A DNA stretch of 15,071 nt, taken from Gammaproteobacteria bacterium. GTDB lineage: Bacteria > Pseudomonadota > Gammaproteobacteria > Eutrophobiales > Eutrophobiaceae. The stretch covers positions 1-15,071 of the forward strand of contig VYCZ01000378.1 of NCBI GenBank assembly GCA_009843675.1. The letters are read 5' to 3'. Both the position numbers and the translations under genes were made by a program. Every line of letters begins with the position of its first letter. Positions within the stretch are counted from its first letter, which is position 1. A model generated the notes under the pieces. That model made no database searches and had not been told where the DNA came from. It saw only the letters and a list, made by a program, of their open reading frames with translations. Shown here one piece after another: positions 3 through 15,071 of the stretch.

Positions 3-1169
3 GATATATCTGCCGGTGTCGGGGTCAGCAGTGTCGGTCGTTCCCATCCCAGGGTTATCGAAGCCATGGAAAGCCAGTCGAAGATTCTCATGCACGCCTC
101 GGACATCAGTAATACCAGGCGCGGGGAACTGGCGAAAAAGATTGCCTCCATCGCGCCGCCCGGCCTCAGGAACAACTGTATCAGCTATTTCACCCAGAGC
201 GGCAGCGGCGCACTGGAGTGCGCCATCAAGTTTGCCCGCCGGGTGACCGGGCGCAACCAGATCCTGGCCTTCCACGGCGCCTATCATGGTGTCTGGGCAG
301 CTTCCAATGCCATCACCACCGGTGACCAGTACCGCAAGGGATATGGTCCATTCATGGGTGGCGTCATTCATGCGCCTTATCCCTACGCCTACCGTTTCCC
401 CCTGCCTCTCGGGGACAAGTCCTGCGAGGAAGTCTGCGGTGACTACGTGGACTACCTGTTGAACACTCCTTATACGGCGGCGGACGACGTGGCGGCGGTC
501 ATCGTTGAACCGGTGCAGGGAGAGGGTGGCTACGTGCCGCCGGCTCCTGAATTTTTCCATCGGGTCAAGGCTGCCTGTGAAAAACACGGCGCCCTGTTTG
601 TCGCGGATGAGGTCCAGGCGGGCACCGGCCGCACCGGCAAGATGTGGTCCATTGAACATGCCGGGGTGGAGCCGGACATGATCACCTTCGGCAAGGGCAT
701 GGGCGGGGACCTGCCGATGGCGGGCGTGATCATGCGTAAGGACCTGGCGCAACAGCTTGACGACATGTCACAACCCCAGACCTTTGCCGCCAATGCGGTA
801 TCTTCTGCGGTCACCATGACCAATATCGACATCATCCAGGAAGGCGAACTGGTGGAAAGGGCGGCGCAGTTGGGCCGGGAAGTCCTGGACCGGTTGCAGG
901 CTGAAAGTGAGAACCTGCCCATCATCGGTGAAGTGCGGGGCAGGGGACTGATGATCGGCATCGAACTGGTCAAGGACAGGGAGACCCGGGAGCCCGCTGA
1001 CGGGGACACGATGATGAAAGTAGTCATGGGCCTGTTATCCAACGGTATCATCATGGTGCCCTGTGGTCGTAACGGCAACGTGTTGAGGCTGATGCCCTCG
1101 TTGACCATCACCCGGGACTACATGAACAAGGCCGTGGATATATTGCTTGATGTTCTGGGCAGTGTCTGA
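3..1169 (+). CDS. Class III PLP-dependent aminotransferase (omega-amino acid/GABA-aminotransferase-like), 5'-truncated by window edge
   Basis: The frame is open from base 3, and the residues before the first ATG (at 66) already read as family sequence (DISAGVGVSSVG, then SHPRVIEAM). The true start therefore lies outside the window; the ATG at 66 is internal. 388 residues are visible. Class III (fold type I) hallmarks: GSGALECAIKFAR and FHGAYHG near the PLP phosphate site, EPVQGEGG, the pyridine-nitrogen Asp in VADEVQAGTGRTG (visible residue 202), and the Schiff-base Lys in FGKGMGGDLP (visible residue 231). Such enzymes move an amino group from an omega-amino acid, diamine or similar donor to pyruvate or 2-oxoglutarate in the cytoplasm. 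The donor cannot be read from sequence. The MFS gene follows after 60 bases with no clear terminator, so co-transcription is likely. In an amine-catabolism setting it could deaminate a GABA- or 5-aminovalerate-like intermediate (inference). Confidence 0.9.
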   Translation, partial: DISAGVGVSSVGRSHPRVIEAMESQSKILMHASDISNTRRGELAKKIASIAPPGLRNNCISYFTQSGSGALECAIKFARRVTGRNQILAFHGAYHGVWAASNAITTGDQYRKGYGPFMGGVIHAPYPYAYRFPLPLGDKSCEEVCGDYVDYLLNTPYTAADDVAAVIVEPVQGEGGYVPPAPEFFHRVKAACEKHGALFVADEVQAGTGRTGKMWSIEHAGVEPDMITFGKGMGGDLPMAGVIMRKDLAQQLDDMSQPQTFAANAVSSAVTMTNIDIIQEGELVERAAQLGREVLDRLQAESENLPIIGEVRGRGLMIGIELVKDRETREPADGDTMMKVVMGLLSNGIIMVPCGRNGNVLRLMPSLTITRDYMNKAVDILLDVLGSV

Positions 1170-1229
1170 GTCGTATCCATGAAACGATGCCGCGGTAGGG
1201 CACAGCGACAGTCATAAGGAGGTTGTCAC

Positions 1230-2399
1230 ATGCAGTGGTTATTGGGGAATGATACCAACCCCGTGGACGTAAATTCGCGCAGGTCCATCATCGCGATTAT
1301 TTATATCGCGGTGATCGCGCCCTGTGTCTTCATCCTCCAACCGGGTTATGTTCAGGGCCTGGTTGAATACCTGGCATTGAGTGAGGAACAGGCGGGTTAT
1401 ATCGCTTCCGCGGAGATGTTCGGCATAGCCTTCACGACCCTCCTGCTCATCTTCATGGAGGCGCGCTTCGATTGGCGCAAGCTGACTGTATTGTGTCTTA
1501 TCATTGCCGCCGCGGGCAACCTCCTGTCCCTGTCCCTAGCGGATTTCGAGTCGCTGGCGGCGGTGCGGTTCCTGACCGGCATGGGCTCCGGCGGACTGAT
1601 GTCACTGACCTTCGCCATGATGGGGCTAACCGACAAATCCGACCGGAATTTCGGTTATATAGTCACCTGGGTGCTGATCTACGGCGCCCTGGGCATACTG
1701 GTGATGCCTACAGCCTTTGCCACTATCGGCATGGACGGCGTGCTGGTGTTCTTTGCCCTGTTCAATGTTTCGGGCCTGTTCTTCGCCCGCTACCTGCCGC
1801 GCTCCGGGGTCCACCACCTGGACCTGTCCGTACCGGAGAGCGTTCATTATTCCTGGCGCCTGAAAGGGATGTCACTGTTCGCTATCCTGGTCTATAACAC
1901 CTCCATCGGTATCGTCTGGGCCTACCTGTTCCTGCTCGGACTGGAAGCCGGCATCGCCGAGCAGACCGTGGCCAACGTCCTGACCGTCTCCCAGTTCCTG
2001 GGTATTGCCGGGGCCTTCGTCGCGGTGGTCTTGCAGTTGCGCATCGGCCGCATCATCCCCCTGCAGGTGAGTATCATCGGCACCGCCATCGGCATCTACT
2101 TACTGGTGGGCGAGATCGCCCTGTTGCATTTTGCCCTGGGTGTGTGCCTGTTCAATTTCCTGTGGAACGTGAGCATGCCCTACCTGTTGGCGACACTTGC
2201 TTCGTTCGACCGCAGGGGCAAGGTGGTAATCTACGGTATCTGCATGCAGACGCTGGGTTATGCCATCGGCCCCTTCATCGCTGCGACCATTCTCGGGAGG
2301 AGCAGTTATGACCATGTCTATATCGTGGCGACATTACTGTTTCTCGCCAGCGCTGTTGTCCTTATTCCGGGACTGCTGGCACAGAAAAAGCACCTCTGA
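1230..2399 (+). CDS. Major facilitator superfamily transporter, 12 predicted helices
   Basis: Inner-membrane carrier of 389 residues, a usual MFS length. Reading the hydrophobicity gives about twelve segments: roughly residues 20-40, 57-78, 85-103, 111-132, 141-163, 170-190, then six more after a central hydrophilic loop near residues 190-210 (RSGVHHLDLSVPES). The fourth helix begins with the RFLTGMGSGGLMSL pattern typical of MFS proteins, and the loop between helices 2 and 3 (MEARFDWRKL) sits where the conserved MFS loop lies. The start is fixed by a perfect TAAGGAGG at 1215-1222, seven bases before the ATG. The substrate is unknown. Its position behind the aminotransferase suggests uptake or export of the compound, or a product, handled by this cluster. 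It converges with the TonB receptor gene, 56 bases away. Confidence 0.88.
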   Translation: MQWLLGNDTNPVDVNSRRSIIAIIYIAVIAPCVFILQPGYVQGLVEYLALSEEQAGYIASAEMFGIAFTTLLLIFMEARFDWRKLTVLCLIIAAAGNLLSLSLADFESLAAVRFLTGMGSGGLMSLTFAMMGLTDKSDRNFGYIVTWVLIYGALGILVMPTAFATIGMDGVLVFFALFNVSGLFFARYLPRSGVHHLDLSVPESVHYSWRLKGMSLFAILVYNTSIGIVWAYLFLLGLEAGIAEQTVANVLTVSQFLGIAGAFVAVVLQLRIGRIIPLQVSIIGTAIGIYLLVGEIALLHFALGVCLFNFLWNVSMPYLLATLASFDRRGKVVIYGICMQTLGYAIGPFIAATILGRSSYDHVYIVATLLFLASAVVLIPGLLAQKKHL

Positions 2400-2430
2400 T
2401 AACAAGCCGGGTGAGATTGGGAACAATCTG

Positions 2431-2455: not shown

Positions 2456-4783
2456 CTAGAAGTCTTTCCTTATCGTCAATCCGTAAGTGCGTGGACGCGC
2501 GTAGGAAATCTGGGTATTGCCGGTAAAACCGGATACATCAAACCCGATAATGCCGTGGTTCGAATCGAACAGGTTGTCGATAAACCCGGTTACCGTCCAT
2601 TCATACGACGGGTCGGACCAGTTGAGGCGGACGTCTACGACAGTGTGGCTTTCTATTTCATGTGCCGTGAAGTTCCTGGCATTATGGAACACTTCGGATC
2701 GGAATGAACCGTTGAGTTGTGCTGCGATATTGCCCAGTCCGGTGTCCCGGTTATAACGAATTAACCCTGATGCCTGGAACTCGGGGGTGAATGCCGGCCG
2801 GGTATCCCTGGTCAGGCCTGGGGCAACCTCCAGTTTGTTCACCTCGGCATCTATCCAGGAACCGCCGGCCATGATATCCCAGGACTCTGACGGAGTCAGG
2901 AACAGTTCAAGTTCGAGCCCGGTAAATTCCGCTTCTTCATTCGTCACGGAACTGACGTTGTTGACCCAGGAGAAGGACTGGTAATCGGTGTAGTCATAAT
3001 AGAACAGGCTAGTATTCAACTGCACCCGTCCATCCGCTAATGTCAGTTTTGCTCCCGCCTCGCAGGCCAGTAAAATTTCCGGCTTATAAGTGCCGAAGCC
3101 TCCCAGCAAGGGAGCGCTGAAACTGCCGGCCTTGACGCCCCTGTTCACGCCGATGTAATACAGGCTGTCATCATCAGGCGAGTATTCAAGCTGGACTTTG
3201 GCCGACCAGAGGTCCTGGTTATTTTCCAGGTCCGCGCGTTCAAGGGTAGCCATACGGGTGTCCGTTTCTATTGTCCTGTCATCCAGATTCCGGAACAGAC
3301 CGATATCACCCGACAGTTTTTTGTCTTCCTTGATATAGCGCAATCCCAGCACGGCCGCCAGGCTGTGAGACAGGAAATAGTCAATCTGTCCGAAAACGGA
3401 ATAAGAGTCGGTTTCCATGGATGTGATCGTATTGAATTCCCGGCTGGGGCCGACTACCACCGATTCGGCGCTACCGGCCAGCCCCTGGGTAAACCCGGTA
3501 TCTATACCGAGATAATACAGACCGGCGACCCAGTTCATGGTGTCGTTTGAACCGGCGATTCTCAATTCCTGGGTGACTTGTTCAATTTCACCGTCGGAGT
3601 GGAATATAACTTCAGGTGAAGCGCTGACATCAGGATCTAACCCTATAATCCTATTAAATTTTTTATAATCGGATATGGATACGAATTCAATTCCGCCGAA
3701 GTCATAGTCAAGAGTCCCTGTTATCCCGTGGGATTCGATCTGGTTTTGATCGTCAAAAGCGAAATCCCGGTCGATGCGCCTGCCGCTGCCGTCCGGGTCG
3801 ATATTGCCGCTGAAATCGCCACCGGGCACAGGACGATACGGGCTGGTACCGGCATCAAGTACGGCATCGACACATCTGCCCGACTGTATCTGGTCGCACC
3901 CCAGCGGGTCGTCTGCGGCGTAGATGACGTCAATGACCGCACCGTCGGCATTGAGGATTTCGGTGGTGTTGACTGCCTGGTACGGACCTTCACTTTTTGT
4001 CGTATCGGCCCAATTCACGCTCAGCAGTAAGCTGCCATTGTTATTCAAATCATATTCGATGTGGGCGCGCACGGCCTGTGTATCATCGTTGTAGGTGTCT
4101 TCACCGCCACCGGGCGACCCCGGGCGGGTATCGGGCGCTGAACCGTCCACGTACACGTTTTTCAGTATTTCTCCCTGCAGGTTGGACAGGAAGGCTACAC
4201 GCGCGCGTAATCTGTCGGATAACGGGCCGGAGGCGGCGCCTTCAAACCGGTACTGGTCAAACCTGGCCGCGGTAAACTCGCCGTATCCTTCGAATTCATA
4301 GGTGGGTTTTACGGTTATCGTGTTGACCAGGCCGCCGGTTGCGTTCCTGCCGAACAAGGTGCCTTGCGGGCCCTTGAGGACTTCAATTCGTTCGATGTCA
4401 AACAGGCCGAAGGTCTGGGCCTGGGTGCTGGCAAGATAACTGTCGTCAACATAGACGGCTATGGGAGCCTCCGCAATATCCGCATAGTCGTTTTGCACGA
4501 CACCGCGGATATTGAAGATAGCGCGCTGGCCGCCGATGTCGCCGGCCAGGGATACACCGGGCGTGAATGCGATCAGTTCGGTACTGGATTCGATCCCCAG
4601 CGCATTCATCTGTTCCCCGCTGAAGGCGGTGACGGCTACGCCTACATCGTTGATGTTCTGCTCCCGTTTCTGGGCGGTCACGACGATCTCTTCAAGGCTC
4701 CAGGCGCTTGCGCAGGCCGTCATACTAATCAAGATGAATACCCATCTTGTCTGCCAATGTGCGGATTTCTCAATTATTGCCAT
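2456..4783 (-). CDS. TonB-dependent outer-membrane receptor
   Basis: A 775-residue outer-membrane transporter of normal family length. The N terminus has a signal peptide (WVFILISMTACASAW, about residues 14-28), directly followed by a TonB box (EEIVVTAQKR, residues 31-40). The plug domain follows, with IRGVVQN and the strongly conserved LKGPQGTLFGRNATGG. The remainder reads as a beta-barrel with alternating aromatic strands, ending in Phe (IRKDF), the usual outer-membrane assembly signal. A predicted outer loop carries two cysteines (GCDQIQSGRC) that could form a disulfide. This subtype is very common in sphingomonads and marine Gammaproteobacteria and imports varied organic ligands as well as iron chelates; the ligand here is unknown. 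It is transcribed against its neighbours and shares a 121-base divergent intergenic region with the mgs operon. There is no strong Shine-Dalgarno at 4783, but that start gives a complete signal peptide. Confidence 0.93.
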   Translation of the reverse strand: MAIIEKSAHWQTRWVFILISMTACASAWSLEEIVVTAQKREQNINDVGVAVTAFSGEQMNALGIESSTELIAFTPGVSLAGDIGGQRAIFNIRGVVQNDYADIAEAPIAVYVDDSYLASTQAQTFGLFDIERIEVLKGPQGTLFGRNATGGLVNTITVKPTYEFEGYGEFTAARFDQYRFEGAASGPLSDRLRARVAFLSNLQGEILKNVYVDGSAPDTRPGSPGGGEDTYNDDTQAVRAHIEYDLNNNGSLLLSVNWADTTKSEGPYQAVNTTEILNADGAVIDVIYAADDPLGCDQIQSGRCVDAVLDAGTSPYRPVPGGDFSGNIDPDGSGRRIDRDFAFDDQNQIESHGITGTLDYDFGGIEFVSISDYKKFNRIIGLDPDVSASPEVIFHSDGEIEQVTQELRIAGSNDTMNWVAGLYYLGIDTGFTQGLAGSAESVVVGPSREFNTITSMETDSYSVFGQIDYFLSHSLAAVLGLRYIKEDKKLSGDIGLFRNLDDRTIETDTRMATLERADLENNQDLWSAKVQLEYSPDDDSLYYIGVNRGVKAGSFSAPLLGGFGTYKPEILLACEAGAKLTLADGRVQLNTSLFYYDYTDYQSFSWVNNVSSVTNEEAEFTGLELELFLTPSESWDIMAGGSWIDAEVNKLEVAPGLTRDTRPAFTPEFQASGLIRYNRDTGLGNIAAQLNGSFRSEVFHNARNFTAHEIESHTVVDVRLNWSDPSYEWTVTGFIDNLFDSNHGIIGFDVSGFTGNTQISYARPRTYGLTIRKDF

Positions 4784-4838: not shown

Positions 4839-4904
4839 TAATAAAGTTCAGACGACCGTGTCACATTCACTGAAACAGCATTCGTTAAATTCGGCTCCAT
4901 CACT

Positions 4905-5801
4905 ATGTGTGGAATAGTCGGCCTGTTCAGCAAATCCCCGTCCATTGAAAATCACCTGGGCGAGTTGCTGGCGCGCATGCTGATCGAGATGACGGAACGT
5001 GGTCCCGACAGTACCGGCGTCGCCGTTTACCGTGATCGCGCGCCTGGCTCAATGACCAAGATCACCTTGCTCAGCAGGGATGGTGAATTCGACTGGCAGG
5101 GGATGAACGATGAGGTTTCCCGGGTATTCCCGGGTTCCGGCAGCCTGAAGTCTGCGGAAAACCATGCCGTCGTGACCATTGACGCACCGGCAAGCCGGTT
5201 CCGGGAATGGGTTGCCGGGGAACACCCGGAACTGTACATCAACAGCACCGGTACCAGTATGGAGATCTACAAGGAGAAAGGCTTGCCGTCTGATGTGGTA
5301 GACCGCTTCGGGGTATCCGCTATGCAGGGCACCCACGCATTAGGGCACACGCGCATGGCGACGGAGAGCAGGGTTACCACTGAACATTCACATCCTTTTT
5401 CCACGGGCGAGGATTTATGCCTGGTCCATAACGGTTCCCTCTCCAACCATAATCGCTTGCGGGAGTTCCTGGTAAAACAGGGTCTGGACTTCTACACGGA
5501 CAATGACAGCGAGGTAGCGGCGGGCTACCTGACCTGGCGACTGCGGGAAGGCATGTCACTGGATGAAGCCCTGCAGGCGGCGCTGCTGGACCTGGACGGT
5601 TTTTATACGTTTGCCATAGGCACCAGGGACGGTTTTGCCGTGCTGCGCGACCCGATCGCCTGCAAACCCGCGGTGATGGCGGAAACCGGCGACTGGGTGG
5701 CGATGGCGTCCGAATACCGGGCCATAGCCGTACTACCCGGGGCCGACCAGGCCGAATGCTGGGAACCGGAACCGGCGACGGTCTACAGTTGGAGTCACTG
5801 A
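4905..5801 (+). CDS. mgsA: Class II glutamine amidotransferase subunit of a split glutamate-synthase-like enzyme (MgsA/GlxB type)
   Basis: This 298-residue protein begins Met-Cys-Gly-Ile-Val-Gly. Cys2 would become the N-terminal nucleophile after Met removal, which fixes the start at 4905 even though no Shine-Dalgarno is visible before it. Further class II GATase signatures are GHTRMAT with HSHPF just after it, LVHNGSLSNHNRLR, and DNDSEVAAGYL. The domain normally hydrolyses glutamine and passes ammonia to a partner. It occurs here as a free subunit, followed after five bases by the GXGXG subunit and then the FMN subunit. That order matches N-methylglutamate synthase MgsABC and Rhizobium GlxBCD. 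In MgsABC the enzyme converts methylamine-derived amide nitrogen and glutamate to N-methylglutamate; in other hosts the product is less clear. The symbol is by family and order; glxB is an equally fair label. Confidence 0.85.
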   Translation: MCGIVGLFSKSPSIENHLGELLARMLIEMTERGPDSTGVAVYRDRAPGSMTKITLLSRDGEFDWQGMNDEVSRVFPGSGSLKSAENHAVVTIDAPASRFREWVAGEHPELYINSTGTSMEIYKEKGLPSDVVDRFGVSAMQGTHALGHTRMATESRVTTEHSHPFSTGEDLCLVHNGSLSNHNRLREFLVKQGLDFYTDNDSEVAAGYLTWRLREGMSLDEALQAALLDLDGFYTFAIGTRDGFAVLRDPIACKPAVMAETGDWVAMASEYRAIAVLPGADQAECWEPEPATVYSWSH

Positions 5802-5806
5802 AACTG

Positions 5807-6493
5807 ATGCGCCTGTTTAACCTGGATGAGGTCAGTTTAAGAGAGTTGAACCAGGCATTACACGATTGTAACGGCAGTGATGAGGCTTCTGCCTGGACGG
5901 TGACGAACACAAAGGGAAAACATGCTGTCGCCGCGGGTATTGACGCTCCGCTTGAAGTCACGGTTAACGGCCACGTAGGCTATTATTGCGCCGGCATGAA
6001 CAAACAGGGACAGGTCACGATCCGGGGTAATGCCGGACCCGGGGTCGCGGAGAACATGATGTCGGGACTGGTGCGGGTGACGGGCAATGCTTCACAGTAT
6101 GCCGGCGCCAGTGCCCACGGCGGACTGCTGGTCATCGAGGGCAATGCCGGTTCCCGCTGCGGTATCTCCATGAAAGGAGTGGACATTGTCGTCAGGGGTT
6201 CCATCGGGCACATGGGCGCATTCATGGCACAGAAAGGACGTATGGTCATCTGTGGGGATGCCGGAGGCGCCCTGGGCGATTCGTTGTATGAAGCGCGTAT
6301 CTTTGTCAAGGGAGAAGTTGCCGGCCTGGGCGCGGACTGTGTGGAGAAACCGATGGCGGAAGAGCACGAACGGGAGGTTGCACAGTTGCTGGAACAAGCC
6401 GGCATCAGCGGCGTGGATGCAGCCGGTTTCCGGCGTTACGGTTCCGCCCGCAAGCTGTATCATTTCAATATCGATAACGTGGATGCGTATTGA
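5807..6493 (+). CDS. mgsB: GXGXG beta-helix subunit of a split glutamate-synthase-like enzyme (MgsB/GlxC type)
   Basis: 228 residues from the ATG at 5807. The middle (about residues 50-180) is a run of short glycine-rich repeats such as VTIRGNAGPGV, VRVTGNASQYAG, VIEGNAGSRCG, VVRGSIGHMG and VICGDAGGALGD. These form the right-handed beta-helix of the glutamate synthase GXGXG (gltB C-terminal) domain, which has no catalytic centre and holds the assembly together. The C terminus is helical and ends YHFNIDNVDAY. I chose 5807, not the in-frame ATG at 5756, because residues from 5807 (MRLFNLDEVSLRELNQALHD) begin like the family, and a TTGGAG lies at 5789-5794. The 5756 start would overlap mgsA by 46 bases. 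The stop overlaps the next start (TGATG), so translation is probably coupled. Confidence 0.84.
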   Translation: MRLFNLDEVSLRELNQALHDCNGSDEASAWTVTNTKGKHAVAAGIDAPLEVTVNGHVGYYCAGMNKQGQVTIRGNAGPGVAENMMSGLVRVTGNASQYAGASAHGGLLVIEGNAGSRCGISMKGVDIVVRGSIGHMGAFMAQKGRMVICGDAGGALGDSLYEARIFVKGEVAGLGADCVEKPMAEEHEREVAQLLEQAGISGVDAAGFRRYGSARKLYHFNIDNVDAY

Positions 6494-7830
6494 TGCCTGA
6501 AAAAGATATCACGGAATGGTTGCGCGAATCGGCCACGTTCCCGCGAGCGGTGATCGCCGATATCCAGCGCGCCGCGCGCACCGGCATATACGATATTCGC
6601 GGTTTCGGCGCCAAACGCGCGCTGCCGACGTTTGACGACCTGGTGTTCCTCGGCGCCAGCATGACGCGCTATCCCCTGGAAGGCTACCGCGAACGTTGCG
6701 ATACCAGCGTGACGCTGGGCACGCGCTACGCGAAGAAGCCGCTGGAGTTAAAAATACCCGTCACCATTGCTGGCATGAGTTTCGGCGCGTTGTCGGCGCC
6801 GGCAAAGGAAGCATTGGGACGCGGCGCTACCGAAGTCGGCACCAGCACTACTACCGGAGACGGCGGCATGACGCCGGAAGAGCGGGAGCATTCCGAACTG
6901 CTGGTTTACCAGTTGCTGCCGTCCCGCTACGGGATGAACCCGGATGACCTGCGCCGGGCGGATGCCATCGAAGTAGTGGTGGGCCAGGGCGCCAAACCAG
7001 GGGGAGGCGGCATGCTGCTGGGCCAGAAGATCAGCGCCCGGGTTGCGGAAATGCGCGATCTGCCCGAAGGGATAGACCAGCGCAGCGCCAGCCGCCACCC
7101 GGACTGGACCGGGCCGGACGACCTGGCGATCAAGATCCGGGAACTGCGGGAGATTACCGATTGGGAAAAGCCCGTCTACATCAAGATAGGGGCTTCCCGG
7201 ACGTATTTCGACACCATGCTGGCGGTCAAGGCCGGCGCGGATGTCATCGTCGTTGATGGAATGCAGGGCGGCACCGCGGCAACTCAGGAGGTCTTTATCG
7301 AACACGTCGGCATCCCCACCCTGCCGGCGGTAAGACTGGCCGTGGAAGCCCTGAAGGAAATGGACATGCACCGCAAGGTCCAGTTGATCGTATCCGGGGG
7401 GATACGTAGCGGCGCCGACGTGGCCAAGGCGCTGGCGCTGGGCGCCGATGCGGTTTCCATCGGCGTGGCGGCCCTGATTGCCCTGGGCGACAACAGCCCG
7501 GAATTTGAAGAGGAATACCGCAGGCTGGGCACGTCCGCGGGCTTTTATGATGACTACCAGGACGGCCGCGACCCGACAGGAATTTCCACCCAGAGCGACG
7601 AACTCGCAGCCCGGTTCGACCCGGTCAAGGGAGGCAGGCGGCTCGCCAATTATCTCCGGGTATTGACGCTGGAGACCCAGACCCTGGCGCGCGCCTGCGG
7701 CAAGAACCACGTGCATAACATGGAACCTGAGGACCTGGCGGCGTTGACTATAGAGGCGGCCGCCATGGCCAAAGTACCGCTTGCCGGCACTGACTGGATT
7801 CCCGGTGAAGACAGGCCGAAAAGTAAATGA
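6493..7830 (+). CDS. mgsC: FMN-binding glutamate-synthase-domain subunit (MgsC/GlxD type)
   Basis: 445 residues, a TIM-barrel FMN domain like the synthase part of GltB. Matching blocks are AGMSFGALSAPAKEAL, TTTGDGGMTPEE, GQGAKPGGGGMLLGQKIS (GltB has a KPGEGGQLPGHKV-like block), VDGMQGGTAATQ, and SGGIRSGADVAKALALGADAVSIG, the phosphate-binding FMN loop. Only two cysteines are present (in RERCDT and ARACGKNHVHN), so the CX5CX4C [3Fe-4S] site of canonical GltB is absent. With MgsA and MgsB it should form the amidotransferase complex in which the FMN domain makes glutamate or an N-alkylglutamate. The ATG at 6493 shares one base with the mgsB stop; a TTG at 6490 is a possible but poorer start. A glutamine-synthetase-like gene follows after 13 bases, the arrangement seen in both gmaS-mgs and glx-glnT loci. 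Confidence 0.87.
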   Translation: MPEKDITEWLRESATFPRAVIADIQRAARTGIYDIRGFGAKRALPTFDDLVFLGASMTRYPLEGYRERCDTSVTLGTRYAKKPLELKIPVTIAGMSFGALSAPAKEALGRGATEVGTSTTTGDGGMTPEEREHSELLVYQLLPSRYGMNPDDLRRADAIEVVVGQGAKPGGGGMLLGQKISARVAEMRDLPEGIDQRSASRHPDWTGPDDLAIKIRELREITDWEKPVYIKIGASRTYFDTMLAVKAGADVIVVDGMQGGTAATQEVFIEHVGIPTLPAVRLAVEALKEMDMHRKVQLIVSGGIRSGADVAKALALGADAVSIGVAALIALGDNSPEFEEEYRRLGTSAGFYDDYQDGRDPTGISTQSDELAARFDPVKGGRRLANYLRVLTLETQTLARACGKNHVHNMEPEDLAALTIEAAAMAKVPLAGTDWIPGEDRPKSK

Positions 7831-7834
7831 GGAG
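7829..7834 (+). promoter_or_regulatory. Ribosome binding site that fixes the glnT-like start
   Basis: GAGGAG overlaps the mgsC stop codon and lies nine bases before the ATG at 7844. This selects 7844 over the upstream in-frame ATG at 7781, which would extend the protein 21 residues into mgsC coding sequence with no ribosome binding site or family similarity. Confidence 0.7.
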
Positions 7835-7843
7835 AAAACCGTC

Positions 7844-9151
7844 ATGACAACCGATCTGGCACAAGTTGCAAAAGAGAGAGACATCAAATATTTCCTGATC
7901 AGTTTCGTCGACCTGTTCGGCACGTTGCGATCGAAACTGGTCCCGGCGCGTGCGATAGCGGATATGCAAGCGGAAGGCGCCGGGTTTGCCGGCTTCGCCG
8001 CGTGGCTGGATATGACCCCGGCGGACCCCGACATGTTCGGCATACCGGACCCGGACAGCCTGATCCAGTTGCCCTGGAACCGGGAAGTCGGCTGGCTGGC
8101 CGCCGACCTGTGGATGAACGGCAAGGAAGTGGAAGCCTCGCCGCGTATCGTGCTGAAACGACAACTGGCCAGGGCGGAACAGTCGGGTTACCGTATGAAA
8201 ACGGGCGTTGAGTGTGAATACTTCCTCATTAACCAAGAGGGCACGGCCATCTCCGATCCCGCCGATATACAGAGCAAGCCCTGTTATGATCAACAGGCGC
8301 TGATGCGCCGTTATCCCGTCATCAAGGCGATATGCGACTGTATGCTGGAACTGGGCTGGGGGCCGTACCAGAACGACCACGAGGACGCAAACGGCCAGTT
8401 CGAAATGAACTGGGACTATGCCGATGCCCTGACGACAGCAGACCGGCACGTGTTTTTCAAGTACATGGTGAAAACCATTGCGGAGCAGCATGGCTACCGC
8501 GCAACGTTCATGCCGAAACCCTTTGCCGAGTTGACCGGCAACGGCTGCCATACCCATGTTTCCCTGTGGGATGCAGCAGGCGAGACAAACCTGTTCCTGG
8601 ATGACAGCGATGAACTGGGTCTGTCGGGGCTCGCTTACCATTTCCTGGGCGGCATCATGCACAATGCCACTGCGCTTTGCGCCCTGTTCAACCCTACCGT
8701 GAACAGCTACAAGCGCATCGATGCGCCGCGTACCCTGTCCGGCGCGTCCTGGTCGCCGAGTTCGGTCACCTACACAGGGAATAACCGTACCCACATGATA
8801 CGAATTCCGGACACAGGCCGGTTCGAACTGCGCCTGATGGATGGATCCACCAACCCGTACCTGTCCCAGGCCGGAATCCTGGCCGCCGGGCTGGACGGAA
8901 TGGAGAACGGGCGTGATCCGGGCAAACCCCTGCATATTGACATGTACGCGGAAGGCCACAAGGTCAGATCCGCCCGGAAATTACCGGCAACCCTGCTGGA
9001 TGCCTTGCGCCTGCTGGAAAAGAACAAGGTGCTGCGCGCCAGCTTGGGAGATGAGTTTGTGGATTCCTACATCAAGCTGAAAATGCAGGAATGGGGGGAG
9101 TACACGTCGCACCTCAGTGATTGGGAGCGGAGGAATACGCTGGATTGTTAA
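7844..9151 (+). CDS. glnT: Type III glutamine-synthetase-like ligase (GlnT / gamma-glutamylmethylamide synthetase type)
   Basis: 435 residues, usual for the short GS family. An N-terminal grasp domain (KYFLISFVDLFGTLRSKLVPA) precedes the ATP-grasp-like catalytic barrel. Visible GS motifs are the metal-binding GVECEYFLI (Glu123 and Glu125), EDANGQFEMNW, the ATP-loop region TGNGCHTHVSLW, NSYKR, GNNRTHMIRIPD, and FELRLMDGSTNPYL with the metal/phosphate-binding acidic residue. The protein closely follows the pattern I recall for GlnT and GMAS, which ligate glutamate with ammonia or methylamine using ATP. The Tyr adenylylation motif of type I GS is missing, so regulation by GlnE is unlikely. As fourth gene of the operon it would supply the gamma-glutamyl amide (or glutamine) that the MgsABC complex uses. 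Sequence alone does not separate methylamine from ammonia or a longer amine. A gmaS label is equally possible. Confidence 0.86.
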   Translation: MTTDLAQVAKERDIKYFLISFVDLFGTLRSKLVPARAIADMQAEGAGFAGFAAWLDMTPADPDMFGIPDPDSLIQLPWNREVGWLAADLWMNGKEVEASPRIVLKRQLARAEQSGYRMKTGVECEYFLINQEGTAISDPADIQSKPCYDQQALMRRYPVIKAICDCMLELGWGPYQNDHEDANGQFEMNWDYADALTTADRHVFFKYMVKTIAEQHGYRATFMPKPFAELTGNGCHTHVSLWDAAGETNLFLDDSDELGLSGLAYHFLGGIMHNATALCALFNPTVNSYKRIDAPRTLSGASWSPSSVTYTGNNRTHMIRIPDTGRFELRLMDGSTNPYLSQAGILAAGLDGMENGRDPGKPLHIDMYAEGHKVRSARKLPATLLDALRLLEKNKVLRASLGDEFVDSYIKLKMQEWGEYTSHLSDWERRNTLDC

Positions 9152-9177
9152 TGGCGTGCGTTAAATCCAGATTACGA

Positions 9178-9206
9178 TTGATACGTTTTAACTGACGGAT
9201 TATATT
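9178..9206 (+). promoter_or_regulatory. Strong sigma70-like promoter ahead of the SDR gene
   Basis: TTGATA (9178-9183) and TATATT (9201-9206) are separated by exactly 17 bases; each hexamer matches the consensus at five of six positions. Transcription would be expected to start near 9212-9214, only six to eight bases before the ATG at 9220. The SDR-P450-ferredoxin group therefore probably has its own promoter, separate from the mgs operon, and its first message may be almost leaderless. Confidence 0.6.
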
Positions 9207-9219
9207 AAACTTTCCCTGC

Positions 9220-9993
9220 ATGTCGATTGATCATAAAGTTTCTGCAATCGTCACCGGAGCCGGTTCCGGAAATGGAAAAGCCATCGCGGAACGCCTGCTT
9301 CGAGATGGCGCAAACGTGGCTCTACTGGATGTGGACGGTGATTCCGTAAACAACCTGGCTGCCCATCACGGGCACGCGATTGCAATCACCGCAGACGTCA
9401 CGAATGAAATGTCGATCAAACATGCGATTCAGTCAGTTGAAGAGGCTATTGGCCGGCTGAACGTATTGGTAAACAACGCAGGAATTGTGCGACCCGGGAC
9501 ATTTGAGGCTTTGTCAGTGGAAGAGTGGGACGAAGTGTTCCGCGTCAACTCCACCGGTCCATTCATTGTCAGCAGAGCGGCTGCACCGTTACTGGCCAGG
9601 ACTGCTGTCGAATGCGGGAAAGAGGCTACAAGCGCAATTGTCAATATCACCTCTGTCGAAGCGCATATCGTGATATCAAGCAGCGGTCATCCCCAGATAC
9701 ATTACAATGCATCAAAAGGCGCATTGTTGCAGTTAACCAGGGCGCTCGCGGTTGAATGCGCCGCAAACAGGATACGGGTCAATGCTGTGGCTCCGGGATT
9801 CATCAATACCCCGTTTACTGCGAAAATACTGGCCGAACCCGGTATCGAATCGTGGATCCTGGAACGTACGCCACTCGGCCGGGTAGGCCAACCGGAAGAT
9901 GTCGCCAACGCCGTGGCTTTTTTGGCCGGCAACGAAGCAAGCTGGATCACAGGGACTACTCTCTTTGTTGATGGCGGGTGGACTGTTTTTTGA
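9220..9993 (+). CDS. Short-chain dehydrogenase/reductase, probably NAD-dependent
   Basis: 257 residues, the classical SDR length. The Rossmann motif TGAGSGNG is at residues 12-19, and Asp37 at the end of the second strand (LLDVDGD) favours NAD(H) over NADP(H). NNAG is at 85-88, with the catalytic tetrad Asn110 (RVNSTGP), Ser145 (NITSVEA), Tyr162 and Lys166 (YNASKG). The C-terminal VNAVAPGFINTPF and GTTLFVDGGW blocks are typical. The Ser-to-Tyr distance (17 residues) is a few longer than the usual 13, from an added HIVISSSGHPQIH stretch next to the active site. The substrate is likely an alcohol or ketone; a carbinol product of the neighbouring P450 is a reasonable guess. There is no Shine-Dalgarno before the ATG and the predicted transcript start is only a few bases upstream. 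The P450 gene follows after 103 bases. Confidence 0.9.
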   Translation: MSIDHKVSAIVTGAGSGNGKAIAERLLRDGANVALLDVDGDSVNNLAAHHGHAIAITADVTNEMSIKHAIQSVEEAIGRLNVLVNNAGIVRPGTFEALSVEEWDEVFRVNSTGPFIVSRAAAPLLARTAVECGKEATSAIVNITSVEAHIVISSSGHPQIHYNASKGALLQLTRALAVECAANRIRVNAVAPGFINTPFTAKILAEPGIESWILERTPLGRVGQPEDVANAVAFLAGNEASWITGTTLFVDGGWTVF

Positions 9994-10096
9994 TTATTGA
10001 CGATTAACTACACATGTCTCGGCATCGTTTAATAGGGAATCACATTTTCAGGCCACAGGCGACGGTATTGTATGGCGCATAACAGGTGAACTTGAC

Positions 10097-11266
10097 ATGA
10101 GCGACAATAATCGGCCCGGACTTGATTTCGACTTCCATGGAAAGGCGCTTGATAATATTTTTGAGACATACGCAGAGATACGGGATAAGTGTCCGGTAGG
10201 ACACAGCGAAAGATACGGCGGTTTCTGGTTCATTAGCAAAAATAATGACATATTTGCCGCGGAGCAGGACCCGGAACGCTATTCAGTGGCGCCCTCAATG
10301 TTGCTCCCGTCTTTCGGGACGGATATTCCGATGATCCCCATCGACATTGACCCACCTAAACACTGGGAATACCGTAAAATTCTTCTGCCTCTGTTCACGC
10401 CCCAGGCCATTAGAAAGATCGAGAACGGCATAAGGATGACTTCCCGTGAATTGGCAATAAAAGTCCTTGAGTCTCTCAGGCATGGTCCTACAGACGCCTC
10501 CTCCATGTTCGCAAGGCCGGTGCCGACTATCGTATTCAGCCGCATCGCCGGATTTCCGGAGCAGGACTGGCCGAAATTCGACAAATGGGTATATGACATC
10601 ATCTATGCCCGTGTTGAATACCCGGAACGGGCAAAAAACGCAGCCCAGGCAGTGATGGATTACTTCAACGATCTGCTTATGGCGCGCAGAAGTGCTGAAC
10701 CCAGGGAGGATGTTATCCAGAAACTGCTTGAAGCCAGGTTGGATGGAAACCCTCTCAGCCAAGATGAACTTATTTCCTACTGCTATCTGCTGTTTGTGGC
10801 GGGTCTTGATACCACCGTATGGGCAATTCGCTCCTCCCTATGGTACCTGGGGCAGAACCTGGAAGATCAACGGCGCCTGCGGGAAGACCCGGAGTTGATA
10901 TATATGGCTGTTGAGGAATTTCTGAGAACCTTATCGCCGGTACAGGCCATGGCCAGAACCTGCCTGGCAGATACGGTTATACAGGGGCAGAAAATCTCAG
11001 CCGGCGAACGGGTCGTCCTGGTGTTCGGTTCGGGAAATCGTGATCCGGATGCATACGATCATCCTGAAAAGATCCAAATTGATCGCGAGGACAATAAACA
11101 CCTTGCATTTGGTGCAGGAATCCACCGTTGCCTGGGATCAAATCTGGCTCGTGCGGAACTGGTCATTTCCTTAAAGGAATTTCTCAATATCGTGCCGGAG
11201 TTTACCCTGGCTGAACCATCCGAACAGTGGCACGGAATAGGAAAACTTACTATCCGGATGAACTAA
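10097..11266 (+). CDS. Cytochrome P450, bacterial soluble class I type
   Basis: 389 residues, no membrane anchor, normal for a soluble bacterial P450 fed by a ferredoxin. The I-helix oxygen-activating motif AGLDTT is at residues 235-240, the K-helix ExxR is Glu274-Arg277 (EFLR), and the heme thiolate Cys345 sits in FGAGIHRCLGSNLAR. The substrate-recognition B-C region contains DIDPPKHWEYRKILLPLF. The start has AGGTGA at 10084-10089, seven bases upstream. The ferredoxin gene follows after 15 bases, so the redox partner is co-expressed. No ferredoxin reductase is visible. P450-ferredoxin-GS neighbourhoods are known from mycobacterial loci for cyclic secondary amines (morpholine, piperidine, pyrrolidine), where the P450 hydroxylates next to nitrogen. 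Whether this P450 belongs to that CYP family cannot be decided here. Confidence 0.95.
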   Translation: MSDNNRPGLDFDFHGKALDNIFETYAEIRDKCPVGHSERYGGFWFISKNNDIFAAEQDPERYSVAPSMLLPSFGTDIPMIPIDIDPPKHWEYRKILLPLFTPQAIRKIENGIRMTSRELAIKVLESLRHGPTDASSMFARPVPTIVFSRIAGFPEQDWPKFDKWVYDIIYARVEYPERAKNAAQAVMDYFNDLLMARRSAEPREDVIQKLLEARLDGNPLSQDELISYCYLLFVAGLDTTVWAIRSSLWYLGQNLEDQRRLREDPELIYMAVEEFLRTLSPVQAMARTCLADTVIQGQKISAGERVVLVFGSGNRDPDAYDHPEKIQIDREDNKHLAFGAGIHRCLGSNLARAELVISLKEFLNIVPEFTLAEPSEQWHGIGKLTIRMN

Positions 11267-11268
11267 GC

Positions 11269-11274
11269 AGGAGG
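11269..11274 (+). promoter_or_regulatory. Ribosome binding site that fixes the ferredoxin start
   Basis: A perfect AGGAGG lies seven bases before the ATG at 11282 but only one base before the in-frame ATG at 11276. The later start is therefore the functional one. Confidence 0.75.
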
Positions 11275-11281
11275 AATGCTA

Positions 11282-11479
11282 ATGAAAGTATCGGTTGACG
11301 AGAAACGGTGTCAGGGTCACGCCAGATGCATCGCCTTCGCAGCACAGGTATTTCACATCGATGATGAGGGTTTTTCCCATGAGCGCGAGGGATTTGAAAC
11401 AGTGACTCCGGAGCTTGAGAAATATGTCAAAAAAGCCTTTGCAAATTGTCCGGAAAACGCAATTCTTATCAGCGACTGA
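11282..11479 (+). CDS. [3Fe-4S]-type ferredoxin, P450 redox partner
   Basis: A 65-residue acidic protein with Cys10, Cys16 and Cys56 in the pattern CQGHARC ... CPENAI. The position where a [4Fe-4S] ferredoxin would have a cluster cysteine is occupied by the CxxHxxC-type His13. This is the small P450-associated ferredoxin family, which carries a [3Fe-4S] cluster and passes single electrons from a flavin reductase to the heme. It starts 15 bases after the P450 stop, with a strong Shine-Dalgarno, so it is almost certainly the partner of that P450. It is followed by 128 bases with several small inverted repeats and then by the second GS-like gene. Confidence 0.92.
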   Translation: MKVSVDEKRCQGHARCIAFAAQVFHIDDEGFSHEREGFETVTPELEKYVKKAFANCPENAILISD

Positions 11480-11552
11480 CAGCATTTACAGATTATGATA
11501 CATCTGGACAGAAGTGCAATTGCAATTATCAGACTCTTAGGTATCTCTGATT

Positions 11553-11588
11553 AAGTCCGGAATGGACTTGTTCAGAGCTTCTTAAGCT
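11553..11588. repeat. Two adjacent small inverted repeats in the leader of the second GS-like gene
   Basis: AAGTCC (11553-11558) and GGACTT (11564-11569) form a six-base stem with a five-base loop. Close behind, AGCTT (11576-11580) and AAGCT (11584-11588) form a five-base stem with a three-base loop. Both lie in the 128-base gap 11480-11607, a few bases ahead of the ribosome binding site of the next gene. The same gap also holds an 8-base palindrome GCAATTGC (11516-11523). No T-run follows the stems, so they are not convincing terminators. They could be RNA processing or operator elements, or chance. Confidence 0.35.
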
Positions 11589-11607
11589 ATCAAGGGGTGA
11601 TGTACAA

Positions 11608-12981
11608 GTGACAAAAGAACAAGAAATGGATGGTGAAACAGTTAATCAGCTTCTGCATGAGAACGACATCGATACCATCAAGTTGGGAATGGTAGATATC
11701 GATGGTTTATGGCGGGGGAAACGCGTTACTGTTGATTACTTTCTTAATTCCATAATACCTAAAGGCGCCCATATTTGCGACATAATCTTCGGGTGGGATA
11801 TTCAGGACAAATTAATCCAGGGACTCAAGTTCACGGGATGGCATACAGGCTATCCCGATGTATTTCTGGTGCCGGATATTTCTACGATCGCAATTGTCCC
11901 CTGGGAGGAGCGGACAGCATCTGTTATTTGTGATGTTGTAGATGCAAATGGCAATCCGGTCGCCATATCACCCAGGTATGTTCTGAGGAAGATCCTCAAC
12001 AGAATGAAAGAGGATGAGCTTACGCCGATGGTAGGATATGAACTTGAATTCTACCTTCTGAAGGAGACGTTACAGTCACTGGAGCAGAAGAATTACACCG
12101 ATATTGAACCTCTGACCAGGGGTCCGGATTGCTACAGTCTGTACCGCGGCACCAGGACAGAGTACATCATTGGCGAATTGCGGCGTAACATGAATAAGTA
12201 TGGAATTATAGTTGACGCTGCCAATAGTGAATACGGTTCCGGCCAATTCGAAGTCAATCTGCATTACTGCCCGGCCATGACAGCCGCGGACAGAAGCCTT
12301 CTTTTCAAGATCGGCATAAAGGAAATAGCGACAATTCACGACATTTTTACTACGTTTATGGCCAAATATAACCATGATGACGCCGGGAGCAGCGCTCATG
12401 TGCACCAGAGTATTTCTGACGGTAGCGGAAAAAACCTGTTTTCAGATGGTGAAGGCGGACTATCGGTCATGGCAATGCACTATCTCGCCGGCGTGATCGC
12501 CACGCTTCCTGAGTTTATGGCACTGTATTGCCCGAATATAAATTCTTATAAACGCATCGTGGAGGATTCATGGACCGGCATAAACGCAACATGGGCCAGG
12601 GAAAACCGGACTACTGCGGTACGCACTGTGGTTAGCAGTGCGAGTGCAACTCGTATCGAGAACCGTATTCCAGGTGCAGATGCAAACCCGCATATCGTGA
12701 TTGCCGCGTGCATTGCCGGTGGTTTATATGGTATGAACGAAAAGCTTAAATCATCCGAGCCTACAGCCGGTAATGCTTATGAACTACCGGATGAGGACAT
12801 CCCACAATTACCGAAGTCACTTGAATCCGCAATTGAAGTATTGTACAGGTCCAATATTGCAAGGGACTTGTTAGGATCCGAATTTGTAGATCATTTTGTC
12901 GCTACCAGGAGCTGGGAAATCCAGGAATACAGAAAGGTAGTTACCGACTGGGAACGCCACCGTTATCTCGAAATGATTTAG
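11608..12981 (+). CDS. Glutamine-synthetase-like gamma-glutamyl-amine ligase (gamma-glutamylpolyamine synthetase type)
   Basis: 457 residues of the short GS superfamily, clearly a different branch from the GlnT-like protein. The N-terminal domain contains IKLGMVDIDGLWRGKRV. Catalytic motifs are GYELEFYL (Glu145 and Glu147), NSEYGSGQFEVNL, AGSSAHVHQS, NSYKRIVEDSW, RENRTTAVR, and RIENRIPGADANPH. The GADANPH block and later GNAYELPDEDIPQLPKSL resemble PuuA-type enzymes. That family joins the gamma-carboxyl of glutamate to a primary amine (putrescine, isopropylamine, aniline in known examples) with ATP, protecting or activating the amine for oxidation. It starts with GTG, supported by AAGGGGTGA at 11592-11600; an ATG at 11626 is an alternative start. 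Placed behind P450-ferredoxin, it probably acts on an amine made or released there. It converges with the PQQ dehydrogenase across only 20 bases. Confidence 0.87.
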   Translation: MTKEQEMDGETVNQLLHENDIDTIKLGMVDIDGLWRGKRVTVDYFLNSIIPKGAHICDIIFGWDIQDKLIQGLKFTGWHTGYPDVFLVPDISTIAIVPWEERTASVICDVVDANGNPVAISPRYVLRKILNRMKEDELTPMVGYELEFYLLKETLQSLEQKNYTDIEPLTRGPDCYSLYRGTRTEYIIGELRRNMNKYGIIVDAANSEYGSGQFEVNLHYCPAMTAADRSLLFKIGIKEIATIHDIFTTFMAKYNHDDAGSSAHVHQSISDGSGKNLFSDGEGGLSVMAMHYLAGVIATLPEFMALYCPNINSYKRIVEDSWTGINATWARENRTTAVRTVVSSASATRIENRIPGADANPHIVIAACIAGGLYGMNEKLKSSEPTAGNAYELPDEDIPQLPKSLESAIEVLYRSNIARDLLGSEFVDHFVATRSWEIQEYRKVVTDWERHRYLEMI

Positions 12982-13001
12982 GTATTATTGTTACGCAGGG
13001 A

Positions 13002-15071
13002 TCATTTCTGCTGCTTGTTGTATAGCAGCCATTGGCGCTCAATAACGTAAGCGTGAATGTCATTCACGTCCTGCTCGCTCAAAATTCCCTGGAACGACAT
13101 CATGCCCTGTGGTTTTCTGACGCCGCCAAGGACAATTTGACTGAATTGCGCATGAGATTCCTGTGACAGGTATTGAAGGCTGTGCATTGACCCTCCCGGG
13201 CGAATGCCTGCGCCTGATGAACCGTGGCACAGCCCGCAGGAGGCTGCGTTATACAGTGAAGCGCCGCGCGCAATCTGTTCGGCCGATGCAGTTTGCGCCG
13301 GCGGTTGCGGTACCGGTGGCAATGCCGGCGAAAACTCAGGCAGTCTGGCATCACCATTAAGCTTGAACGCCAGCAACTGCGTCGGCCCGGGCAGGTCCCC
13401 GAAGAAAGGAATCATGAAACGGGTCATACTGACGGAACCGACAGGAACCAGGATGTACTGCTCGCCAGCCGCCGAATAGGTGACAGGACCGCCCTGGATT
13501 GCGGAGCCCGTATCAAAACTCCACAGTTCTTCTCCCGACGCCGCCGAGTGCGCTCGAAATTTTCCATCAGCCGCGCCCTGGAATACCAGGCCCCCCGCGG
13601 TTGATACCACTCCACCGTTCATGCCGAACTCGTGCAGAAATTCCCATCTCGCCTCCTGTTTGACCACGTCCCATGCGATCAAGCGGCCTTGTGTATTGAG
13701 TTTCCCCGCTTCACTCAAGCCGTCCTCCCTGGTGTTGAGGTTATCACCGTAGTAATGGAAGGAAACACCGCCAAGTGGAGCGTTCTCGCCGGCATTATAG
13801 GTCGTGTCGAAAGACTGCGCCGGTATATACACGAGGTTATGGAAGGGGTGAAAACTCATTGTATGCCAATTGTGGGCGCCGAGGGGGGTAGGGGAGGTAT
13901 AAGCGCTATTGTCCCGCTCCAGGTAATAGCGTACACCCTCGTTTTCAACCGGTCTGCCGGTTTCCAGGTCGATACTGCTTGCCCACTCGACCGGCACGTA
14001 ATTCTCCGCTGCCAGTAATTCTCCGGTTGCCCTGTCCAGGACGTAAAAAAAGCCGTTCTTTGGAGCTTGCAGCAATACTTTCCTGGGTTTGCCGTCCAGT
14101 TCCAGGTCCGCCAATATTATCTGGCTGGCCGCATTCAGGTCCCAGGCGTCAGCCGGGACAGTCTGGTAATGCCATTTGTATTTCCCCGTGTCGGCATCCA
14201 GGGCGATAATCGAGTTCAAAAACAGGTTATCGCCACCGCCGGGACTCCGGGTTTCAGGGTTCCAGGGCAGTCCGCTGTCCGTGCCGATATAGATATGATT
14301 GAATTCTGCGTCATACACGATCGCATCCCAGGCACAGCCGCCTCCGCCGGTAGCCCAGCCCAGCCCCCAGGTAGTTGCAGCCATTTCCAGGATATCGTTT
14401 TCAAACGGCAATGCGGGGTCGCCGGGAACGGTGTAGAAACGCCACACCTGGGCGCCCGTTTCAGCGTCATAAGCAGTGACATAGCCCCTGGCGCCAAAAT
14501 CCGATATGCCGTTACCGATATACACTTTGCCGTTGGCCACCCTGGGCGCGCCGGCAATGGCATATTCCTTGCCCGGATCGCAGGATTGAACTTGCCAGAC
14601 CGGTTCACCCGTCTGCGCTGATAACGCGATTAAACGGCAATCCGACGTGCCTACATACACTTTCCCGTTATTGACCGCAACACCGTGGTTGCGCCGGGCC
14701 GACCATGAAGCGCTGAAACCATGGCCCGGATCAACCTGCGGGTCGTAAAACCAGAGCTCTTCACCGGTGACAGCGTCAAGGGCAAATACCGTGGCAAACG
14801 TGCCGCTCATATATACCACGCCATCAACAACAACAGGTGTGCCGGCAAAACCGTCGTCAGGCAAGGGAGGTTGATAGGACCAGGCAAGTCCCAGTTGCGC
14901 AACATTTTCCGTATTGACCCAGGTCAGCTCACTGAAACGCTGCTCCCGTGCATCGAGTCCGTGTTGCGGCCACCAGACGTCCGATTGTTGATCCGCATCA
15001 CTCGCCGGGGTTGCCGTTTCCTGTGCGTTTCCGGCCGGCGTGTTCTGCGGTGCAGAGTCACAGCCGGACAG
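13002..15071 (-). CDS. PQQ-dependent quinohemoprotein dehydrogenase, lipoprotein, N terminus cut by window edge
   Basis: The minus-strand frame stays open past the first possible start (TTG at 14864) to the window end, giving 689 visible residues. It begins Leu-Ser-Gly-Cys, a lipobox, then a Pro/Ala/Gln-rich linker, so the mature protein is probably a lipid-anchored periplasmic or outer-membrane enzyme. The propeller starts with WWPQHGLDAREQRFSEL and has PQQ W-motif repeats (ALDAVTGEELWFY, AYDAETGAQVWRF, ALDADTGKYKWHY). The catalytic base is probably Asp311 in AWDLNAA. The C-terminal cytochrome c domain has CGLCH (visible 612-616) and a likely Met ligand at 657/658. The adjacent-cysteine pair of canonical enzymes is absent; instead Cys145 and Cys164 lie 18 residues apart. 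Two usual calcium-ligand positions look altered (Asp191 for Glu, Ser266 for Asn). It oxidises an alcohol or an amine-adjacent carbon, passing electrons to heme c. Confidence 0.92.
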   Translation of the reverse strand: MSGCDSAPQNTPAGNAQETATPASDADQQSDVWWPQHGLDAREQRFSELTWVNTENVAQLGLAWSYQPPLPDDGFAGTPVVVDGVVYMSGTFATVFALDAVTGEELWFYDPQVDPGHGFSASWSARRNHGVAVNNGKVYVGTSDCRLIALSAQTGEPVWQVQSCDPGKEYAIAGAPRVANGKVYIGNGISDFGARGYVTAYDAETGAQVWRFYTVPGDPALPFENDILEMAATTWGLGWATGGGGCAWDAIVYDAEFNHIYIGTDSGLPWNPETRSPGGGDNLFLNSIIALDADTGKYKWHYQTVPADAWDLNAASQIILADLELDGKPRKVLLQAPKNGFFYVLDRATGELLAAENYVPVEWASSIDLETGRPVENEGVRYYLERDNSAYTSPTPLGAHNWHTMSFHPFHNLVYIPAQSFDTTYNAGENAPLGGVSFHYYGDNLNTREDGLSEAGKLNTQGRLIAWDVVKQEARWEFLHEFGMNGGVVSTAGGLVFQGAADGKFRAHSAASGEELWSFDTGSAIQGGPVTYSAAGEQYILVPVGSVSMTRFMIPFFGDLPGPTQLLAFKLNGDARLPEFSPALPPVPQPPAQTASAEQIARGASLYNAASCGLCHGSSGAGIRPGGSMHSLQYLSQESHAQFSQIVLGGVRKPQGMMSFQGILSEQDVNDIHAYVIERQWLLYNKQQK

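Follow-up and report, generated by a model that had tools for sequence, protein, structure and literature searches.

An isopropylamine-type P450 and ligase block behind methylamine genes on a gammaproteobacterial contig: a probable mosaic locus

Introduction

The isopropylamine (Ipu) pathway was reportedly first described in Pseudomonas sp. KIE171 by de Azevedo Wasch in 2002, as papers citing that work relate. According to the excerpted text of PMC6776027, which cites the biochemistry from strain KIE171, IpuC converts isopropylamine to gamma-glutamyl-isopropylamide, a cytochrome P450 system converts the latter to gamma-glutamyl-L-alaninol, and this product is then hydrolysed by an amidotransferase-like enzyme; the same excerpt assigns genes of Paenarthrobacter aurescens TC1 to the pathway, as 'proteins predicted to be related' that were detected by proteomics. 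The entry genes of the N-methylglutamate (methylamine) pathway are mgsABC-gmaS (also annotated glxC, glnT). In the ligase GmaS (gamma-glutamylmethylamide synthetase), Ala replaces Asp50′ and Trp replaces the Glu-flap glutamate, and RhGmaS also uses ethylamine well (PMC7948447, in excerpt). Here we describe a locus where gene sets of both kinds stand next to each other, namely a 15,071-nucleotide stretch of gammaproteobacterial DNA (hereafter the window), which is the complete contig C89 of the metagenome-assembled genome (MAG) G000 (466 contigs, 77% complete), its two ends being contig ends.

We favour, with a probability of about 0.7, the view that the window is a mosaic in which a cassette of the Ipu type, directed at a small alkylamine, was acquired and inserted behind a methylamine module. 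Both modules are of known kinds; what appears new is that they are joined and that two of the customary helper genes have been lost, and no report joining isopropylamine and N-methylglutamate modules was found among the literature matches listed. A first-pass annotation of the window had proposed that all of its genes form one pathway degrading a cyclic amine or alkaloid.

An Ipu-type SDR-P450-ferredoxin-ligase block

The four genes at 9220-12981 encode a short-chain dehydrogenase/reductase (SDR), a P450, a ferredoxin and a glutamine synthetase (GS)-like ligase (GS2), and as judged from their sequences this block is closest to the Ipu clusters of P. aurescens TC1. GS2, the P450 and the SDR were each searched against 72,556 plasmid records, and plasmid pTC1 of P. 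aurescens TC1 was the best-ranked match of GS2 (51% identity) and of the P450 (63%) as well as, among the matches listed, of the SDR (66% to AAur_pTC10064, which on pTC1 is the second gene upstream of the P450). The ferredoxin, compared with five opened clusters only, was 52% identical to that of pTC1 and most similar (63%) to one from Aminobacter. The same 10 plasmid records hold a P450 at no less than 58% and a GS at no less than 41% identity; the remaining 20 P450 matches listed, of 1306 records, and the remaining 20 GS matches listed, of 691 records, did not exceed 37.4% and 37.9%, respectively. An SDR at least 59.8% identical to that of the window is present in eight of the 10 Ipu records among the matches listed, the exceptions being two alphaproteobacterial records, and a scan of named genomes with GS2 gave two Paracoccus genes at 34%. 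In a tree of 36 P450s, in other parts of which the program warned of long branches, the window P450 and six Ipu P450s form one clade (support 100/99), and the sister group of this clade consists of the P450s of another GS-P450 operon found in the congeners G001 and G003.

The P450 retains the motifs AGLDT, E-x-x-R and FGAGIHRCLG, and the adjacent ferredoxin has a C-x2-H-x2-C ... CP pattern, which we take to fit the 3Fe-4S type, Pfam assigning it just to Fer4_15/Fer4_13. GS2 has a Cys at the Asp50′ site and a Trp at the Glu-flap glutamate, as in the three actinobacterial IpuC proteins compared, and like the Ipu ligase it is without the ammonium-binding Asp. The two residues of ammonium-using type I GS, Asp50′ and the Glu-flap Glu, are absent both from GS2 and from the first GS-like ligase of the window (GS1), and both are kept by a GS on contig C237 of the same genome, which by its motifs is taken as GlnA. 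The window does carry a second, different GS-like amine ligase, as the first-pass annotation had stated.

The gene order on pTC1 is SDR-hydrolase-P450-ferredoxin-reductase-ipuC, and that of the window is the same minus the hydrolase and the reductase, the positions of which are taken by gaps of 103 bp and 128 bp, respectively. Compared with the Ipu clusters of pTC1 and pTC2, with which it shares the SDR, P450, ferredoxin and IpuC ligase in the same order (51-66% identity to pTC1), the contig is without an adjacent IpuF-type hydrolase, ferredoxin reductase, alanine dehydrogenase and amino acid-polyamine-organocation (APC) permease, and its block sits behind gmaS and in a different lineage. Gene order and annotation are also somewhat different in the two alphaproteobacterial Ipu clusters. 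As it is short of two of the pTC1 cluster's six core genes, the block could be what is left of an Ipu cluster that has lost its function or is decaying, but this is unlikely given that its four reading frames have about the same length as their pTC1 counterparts and that the P450 motifs and ligase residues have been kept.

A cyclic-amine substrate of the piperidine or morpholine type, after the mycobacterial loci, appears quite improbable. It draws on the excerpted text of PMC9477822, where MorA, together with the ferredoxin and reductase next to it, acts on morpholine, piperidine induces PipA, and locus-tag numbers place a GS gene beside pipA in Gulosibacter; the P450, SDR and GS2, however, match Ipu proteins at 51-66%, and the other plasmid P450s listed reach at most 37.4%, a comparison outside which the PipA and MorA sequences stand. 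The closest matches found for GS2, the P450, the SDR and the ferredoxin are all Ipu genes, so that the cyclic-amine or alkaloid substrate of the first-pass annotation is not upheld, and its remark that no described pathway has this combination does not hold for the P450-ferredoxin-ligase part, which is that of the Ipu pathway as given in the excerpt of PMC6776027.

The putative insertion site behind gmaS

The block lies directly behind gmaS on the same strand, with a gap of 68 bp. In the congener G003 (contig C198; L157) the ends of gmaS and of the pyrroloquinoline quinone (PQQ) dehydrogenase gene adjoin and the 3.8 kb with the Ipu-type genes are absent, the site matching window positions 8934-9152 at 89.5% and 12984-15068 at 87.1%. 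A 7-bp direct repeat, ATTGTTA, is found at both junctions (9144-9150 and 12987-12993), and the G003 site has a single ATTGTTG. A target duplication is only suggested by this, because matches this short abound in the flanks. The same frequency of 7-8 bp matches between the flanks led us to reject a 7-bp pair (9213-9219 and 12995-13001) as terminal inverted repeats of the block, and no type of mobile element is claimed; no transposase gene was found in the block.

The composition of the block also deviates, with a G+C content of 48.8% vs 57.6% for the remaining window and a G+C content at third codon positions (GC3) of 0.47-0.55 in its genes vs 0.62-0.77 in the flanking ones; taken singly, the block genes have GC3 values that are equally low in 0.9-9.3% of 108 genes from the G001 and G003 stretches. 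A chimeric assembly, in which a low-G+C block was misjoined to the contig, could be suspected from the fragmented MAG and the abrupt change in composition. It is very improbable, since the sequences on either side of the block have adjoining counterparts in G003 at 87-89% identity, which a chance join is unlikely to give.

An insertion in the window lineage would explain the G003 site, a deletion in G003 being less likely because an Ipu-level P450 was found in no other sampled genome. Specifically, the order sample (53 genomes including its own) gave, at E<=1e-75, matches in the window genome and, at just 42-43% identity, in G001 and G003; among 96 relatives there was none besides it (best other, 43%); and the class (369) and phylum (398) samples, which overlap with the others and, being above order level, are not exhaustive, again gave the window genome only.

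The methylamine module

The genes at 4905-9151 are predicted to be MgsABC-GmaS, the entry half of the N-methylglutamate pathway, and the entry set is complete and in the order MgsA-MgsB-MgsC-GmaS. GS1 reaches 675 bits against TIGR03105, whose cutoff is 470, and 649 bits against Rhodovulum GmaS (RhGmaS, 7cql), is 64-66% identical to the GmaS/GlnT proteins of three plasmid loci, and has both GmaS signatures, Ala at the Asp50′ site and Trp in the Glu flap, as has RhGmaS. The claim of MgsABC-like genes beside a GmaS-type ligase was confirmed. Compared with known N-methylglutamate loci, the window contig is without mgdABCD, folD/purU, dmmABC and an XRE regulator.

MgsC homologues occur at 89-98% identity in six of the 95 other relatives searched (G001, G002, G004, G006, G011 and G014), with weaker matches (36-52%) in four further ones, and at 76-80% in ten plasmid records among the matches listed. 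GS1 directly follows MgsC in all five of those six relatives whose contig continues, and MgdABCD-like genes lie 3′ of MgsABC-GmaS, in keeping with the N-methylglutamate pathway, in G004 and G014, whose Mgd alpha genes are 63% identical, the alpha and beta genes of G004 matching sarcosine-oxidase models. The three alphaproteobacterial plasmids that were opened carry MgsA-MgsB-MgsC-GmaS in the order of the window, with sarcosine-oxidase-type genes nearby in two. In a 20-kb stretch of G001 (L079), window positions 4904-9147, which run from where MgsA begins to where GmaS ends, are matched at 92.4% DNA identity by L079:7780-12024; other genes lie on both sides and no DNA match was found there outside these positions, indicating that the four genes are a unit that occurs in different settings.

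The two modules could also work in series as one integrated pathway, with MgsABC replacing the missing IpuF hydrolase and taking as substrate either the oxidised gamma-glutamyl amide or the amine that this amide releases. The shared strand, the position of the block 68 bp behind gmaS, the absence of the hydrolase exactly here and the nature of MgsA as an amidotransferase with an N-terminal Cys are all in line with this. The G001 copy of MgsABC-GmaS, however, has no Ipu genes within 20 kb, so that the unit presumably works without them, and a shared substrate would seem to find no support in the data; we thus regard such a pathway as unlikely. Less likely still is a fused N-alkylglutamate route, by which MgsABC would turn the hydroxylated gamma-glutamyl alkylamide made by GS2 and the P450, or the freed amino alcohol, into an N-substituted glutamate; if true, branched amines would be handled within a single operon by the logic used for methylamine.

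A probable mosaic of two gamma-glutamyl modules

In the favoured mosaic, GmaS would tie methylamine to glutamate and MgsABC would pass the product on to N-methylglutamate. The IpuC-like GS2 would use ATP to link glutamate to a small primary alkylamine (isopropylamine or one similar to it). The P450, supplied by the ferredoxin and by a reductase whose gene lies at another locus, would then hydroxylate the alkyl part of this gamma-glutamyl amide. The amino alcohol may next be released by a hydrolase that is likewise encoded outside the block, for which a protein on contig C87 is a candidate, and the SDR may oxidise an alcohol of the pathway; the block would be expressed by read-through or from a promoter of its own.

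A number of observations weigh against the mosaic as proposed. All six Ipu clusters opened (of the 10) have an amidotransferase/hydrolase gene and either a ferredoxin reductase (two) or a flavin adenine dinucleotide (FAD)-dependent oxidoreductase (four), none of which is found in the window, and the 103-bp and 128-bp gaps hold no significant trace of the hydrolase or the reductase. The C87 protein is only 39% like the pTC1 hydrolase, nothing in the genome being closer, and reductase-like matches in the genome are only 30-34% and at other loci. The ligase identities of 41-51% would leave the amine substrate open. For the methylamine half, the window's own genome (77% complete) yielded no close match to the MgdC of G004, the best-scoring one being at 38% and pieces at 30-45%; a C305 protein of this genome, however, shows 44% identity to an MgdC-like protein of G015 that lies beside a diverged Mgs set, so that the genome may encode a working Mgd dehydrogenase. 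Moreover, GC3 values as low as those of the SDR and the P450 are seen in 7-9% of the 108 congener genes, promoter- and terminator-like sites in the window are no commoner than in shuffles, and the finding as a whole comes from a single MAG contig. A candidate promoter before the SDR gene (9178-9206, 10/12) was likewise rejected, 11 such sites occurring in the window vs 10.7 in shuffles.

If the mosaic is correct, the P450 and ligase block gains a named and testable function, and an Ipu-type cassette occurs outside the lineages to which the hosts of the 10 plasmid records belong, these hosts being soil bacteria that include atrazine degraders. Gamma-glutamyl amine pathways would then appear to be assembled from movable gene blocks, and a directly testable question is raised, namely whether MgsABC is a stand-in for the Ipu hydrolase.

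Gene content and flanking genes

All components listed by the first-pass annotation (aminotransferase, major facilitator superfamily (MFS) transporter, TonB receptor, MgsABC-like genes, two GS-like ligases, SDR, P450, ferredoxin and PQQ dehydrogenase) were recovered (Table 1). The best Pfam E-values of the window genes lie between about 1e-14 and 1e-99, well outside what chance would give, that of the GXGXG gene being weaker (2.5e-8). The aminotransferase gene at the left end and the PQQ dehydrogenase gene at the right end are both clipped at the 5′ side by the contig ends. Rfam and tRNA scans of the window gave no match. Genes in the loci fetched from relatives were called with a home-made codon-based caller.

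Table 1. Features of the window, with the evidence for each
Feature	Position	Strand	Basis
Class-III aminotransferase, 5′ end cut off; outside the core finding	3..1169	+	PF00202, E=6.5e-95
MFS transporter, partner of the aminotransferase gene	1230..2399	+	PF07690
TonB-dependent receptor	2456..4783	-	PF00593, PF07715; 91% in G001
MgsA-like class-II glutamine amidotransferase, N-terminal MCGIVG	4905..5801	+	PF13522/PF13537; 93% in G001
MgsB-like GXGXG protein; start uncertain, open reading frame opens at 5756	5807..6493	+	PF01493, 2.5e-8; 95% in G001
MgsC-like flavin mononucleotide (FMN)-binding glutamate synthase	6490..7830	+	PF01645, 2.9e-86
GS1 (GmaS), putative gamma-glutamylmethylamide synthetase (type III GS); start most likely at 7844	7844..9151	+	TIGR03105; RhGmaS 7cql; site residues
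Left copy of 7-bp direct repeat ATTGTTA at junction of inserted block	9144..9150		Junction comparison with G003
Block missing from congener G003, ~3.83 kb	9152..12986		Near-empty site in L157; composition
Ipu-type SDR oxidoreductase	9220..9993	+	66% to AAur_pTC10064
Ipu-type cytochrome P450	10097..11266	+	63% to pTC1 P450; Ipu clade 100/99; motifs
Ipu-type ferredoxin	11276..11479	+	PF13459; 52% to pTC1, 63% to Aminobacter gene
GS2, IpuC-like, putative gamma-glutamyl alkylamide synthetase	11608..12981	+	51% to IpuC of pTC1; site residues
Right copy of 7-bp direct repeat ATTGTTA	12987..12993		Junction comparison with G003
Type II quinohaemoprotein (PQQ) alcohol dehydrogenase, 5′ end cut off, convergent neighbour	13002..15071	-	TIGR03075; 1kv9

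The aminotransferase is 84-98% identical in six of 91 other relatives (two further matches, 36-40%), and in all six loci it is adjoined by the MFS gene (75-95% identical). It lies on a different contig from the MgsC match in G001, G002 and G006, the three genomes that have both. In G001 and G003 an extra gene follows (peptidase M28 in G001, alike by eye in G003) and then the TonB receptor gene. Between the MFS and TonB genes the window has 56 bp (2400-2455) vs the peptidase M28-type gene in L158 and L159 (G001 and G003). The TonB receptor gene of G003 (L159:10657-12020) is shortened, about 960 bp of its middle being gone and window positions 2755-3713 unmatched.

Only G003 looks to share the gene order of the window, yet without the P450 block. 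Its aminotransferase contig extends into the first 133 bp of MgsA (match to window position 5037) and ends there, C198 ends within GS1, and MgsC was not found in the G003 assembly; because one contig ends in the MgsA start and the other in GS1, the same order without the Ipu-type block is probable rather than certain. G003 has the PQQ gene at 89% identity, beside two more PQQ dehydrogenases, an aldehyde dehydrogenase (ALDH) and a sarcosine-dehydrogenase-like FAD/GcvT protein. Because their settings differ in relatives, neither the aminotransferase nor the PQQ enzyme is tied to the P450 block, and the PQQ enzyme belongs to another cluster.

The proposal of one pathway of all genes is not borne out by the relatives, in which aminotransferase-MFS, MgsABC-GmaS and the PQQ gene lie on different contigs or in different settings. 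Scattered homologues, which the first-pass annotation itself had named as evidence against its proposal, are seen for the gene set as a whole, while each of the two inner modules stays linked. The annotation was right in pointing to gamma-glutamyl amides as the route of amine metabolism; a single cyclic-amine or alkaloid pathway was rejected, since the neighbourhoods split the window into modules and the P450 block matches Ipu genes.

The G003 FAD/GcvT protein (L157:7059-9512, 817 aa) lies beside the PQQ gene that adjoins gmaS, and could be a stand-in for MgdABCD. In G000, five matches of at least 48% to the window PQQ dehydrogenase, its own included, were found (on C221, C210, C164 and the window).

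The other GS-P450 operon of the congeners

A different operon, putatively a gamma-glutamyl P450 pathway, is present at L080:10318-18791 (G001) and L082:11092-19339 (G003). Like the window, it combines a GS-like ligase, a P450 (42% identity) and a ferredoxin (40% in L080, not called in L082), and its P450s are those sister to the Ipu clade. Unlike the window, its ligase is just 32-33% identical to GS2, and it has an extra alpha/beta hydrolase, an M29-like protein (weak match) and a 249-aa protein with a weak resemblance to PurF/GlmS class-II amidotransferase domains. An IpuF-like gene (37-42%) lies near the operon, being a Peptidase_C26 in L080. Finally, a further divergent GS-like gene stands beside an SDR-like gene and one other gene on another contig of the window genome (C464:4-796; L116).

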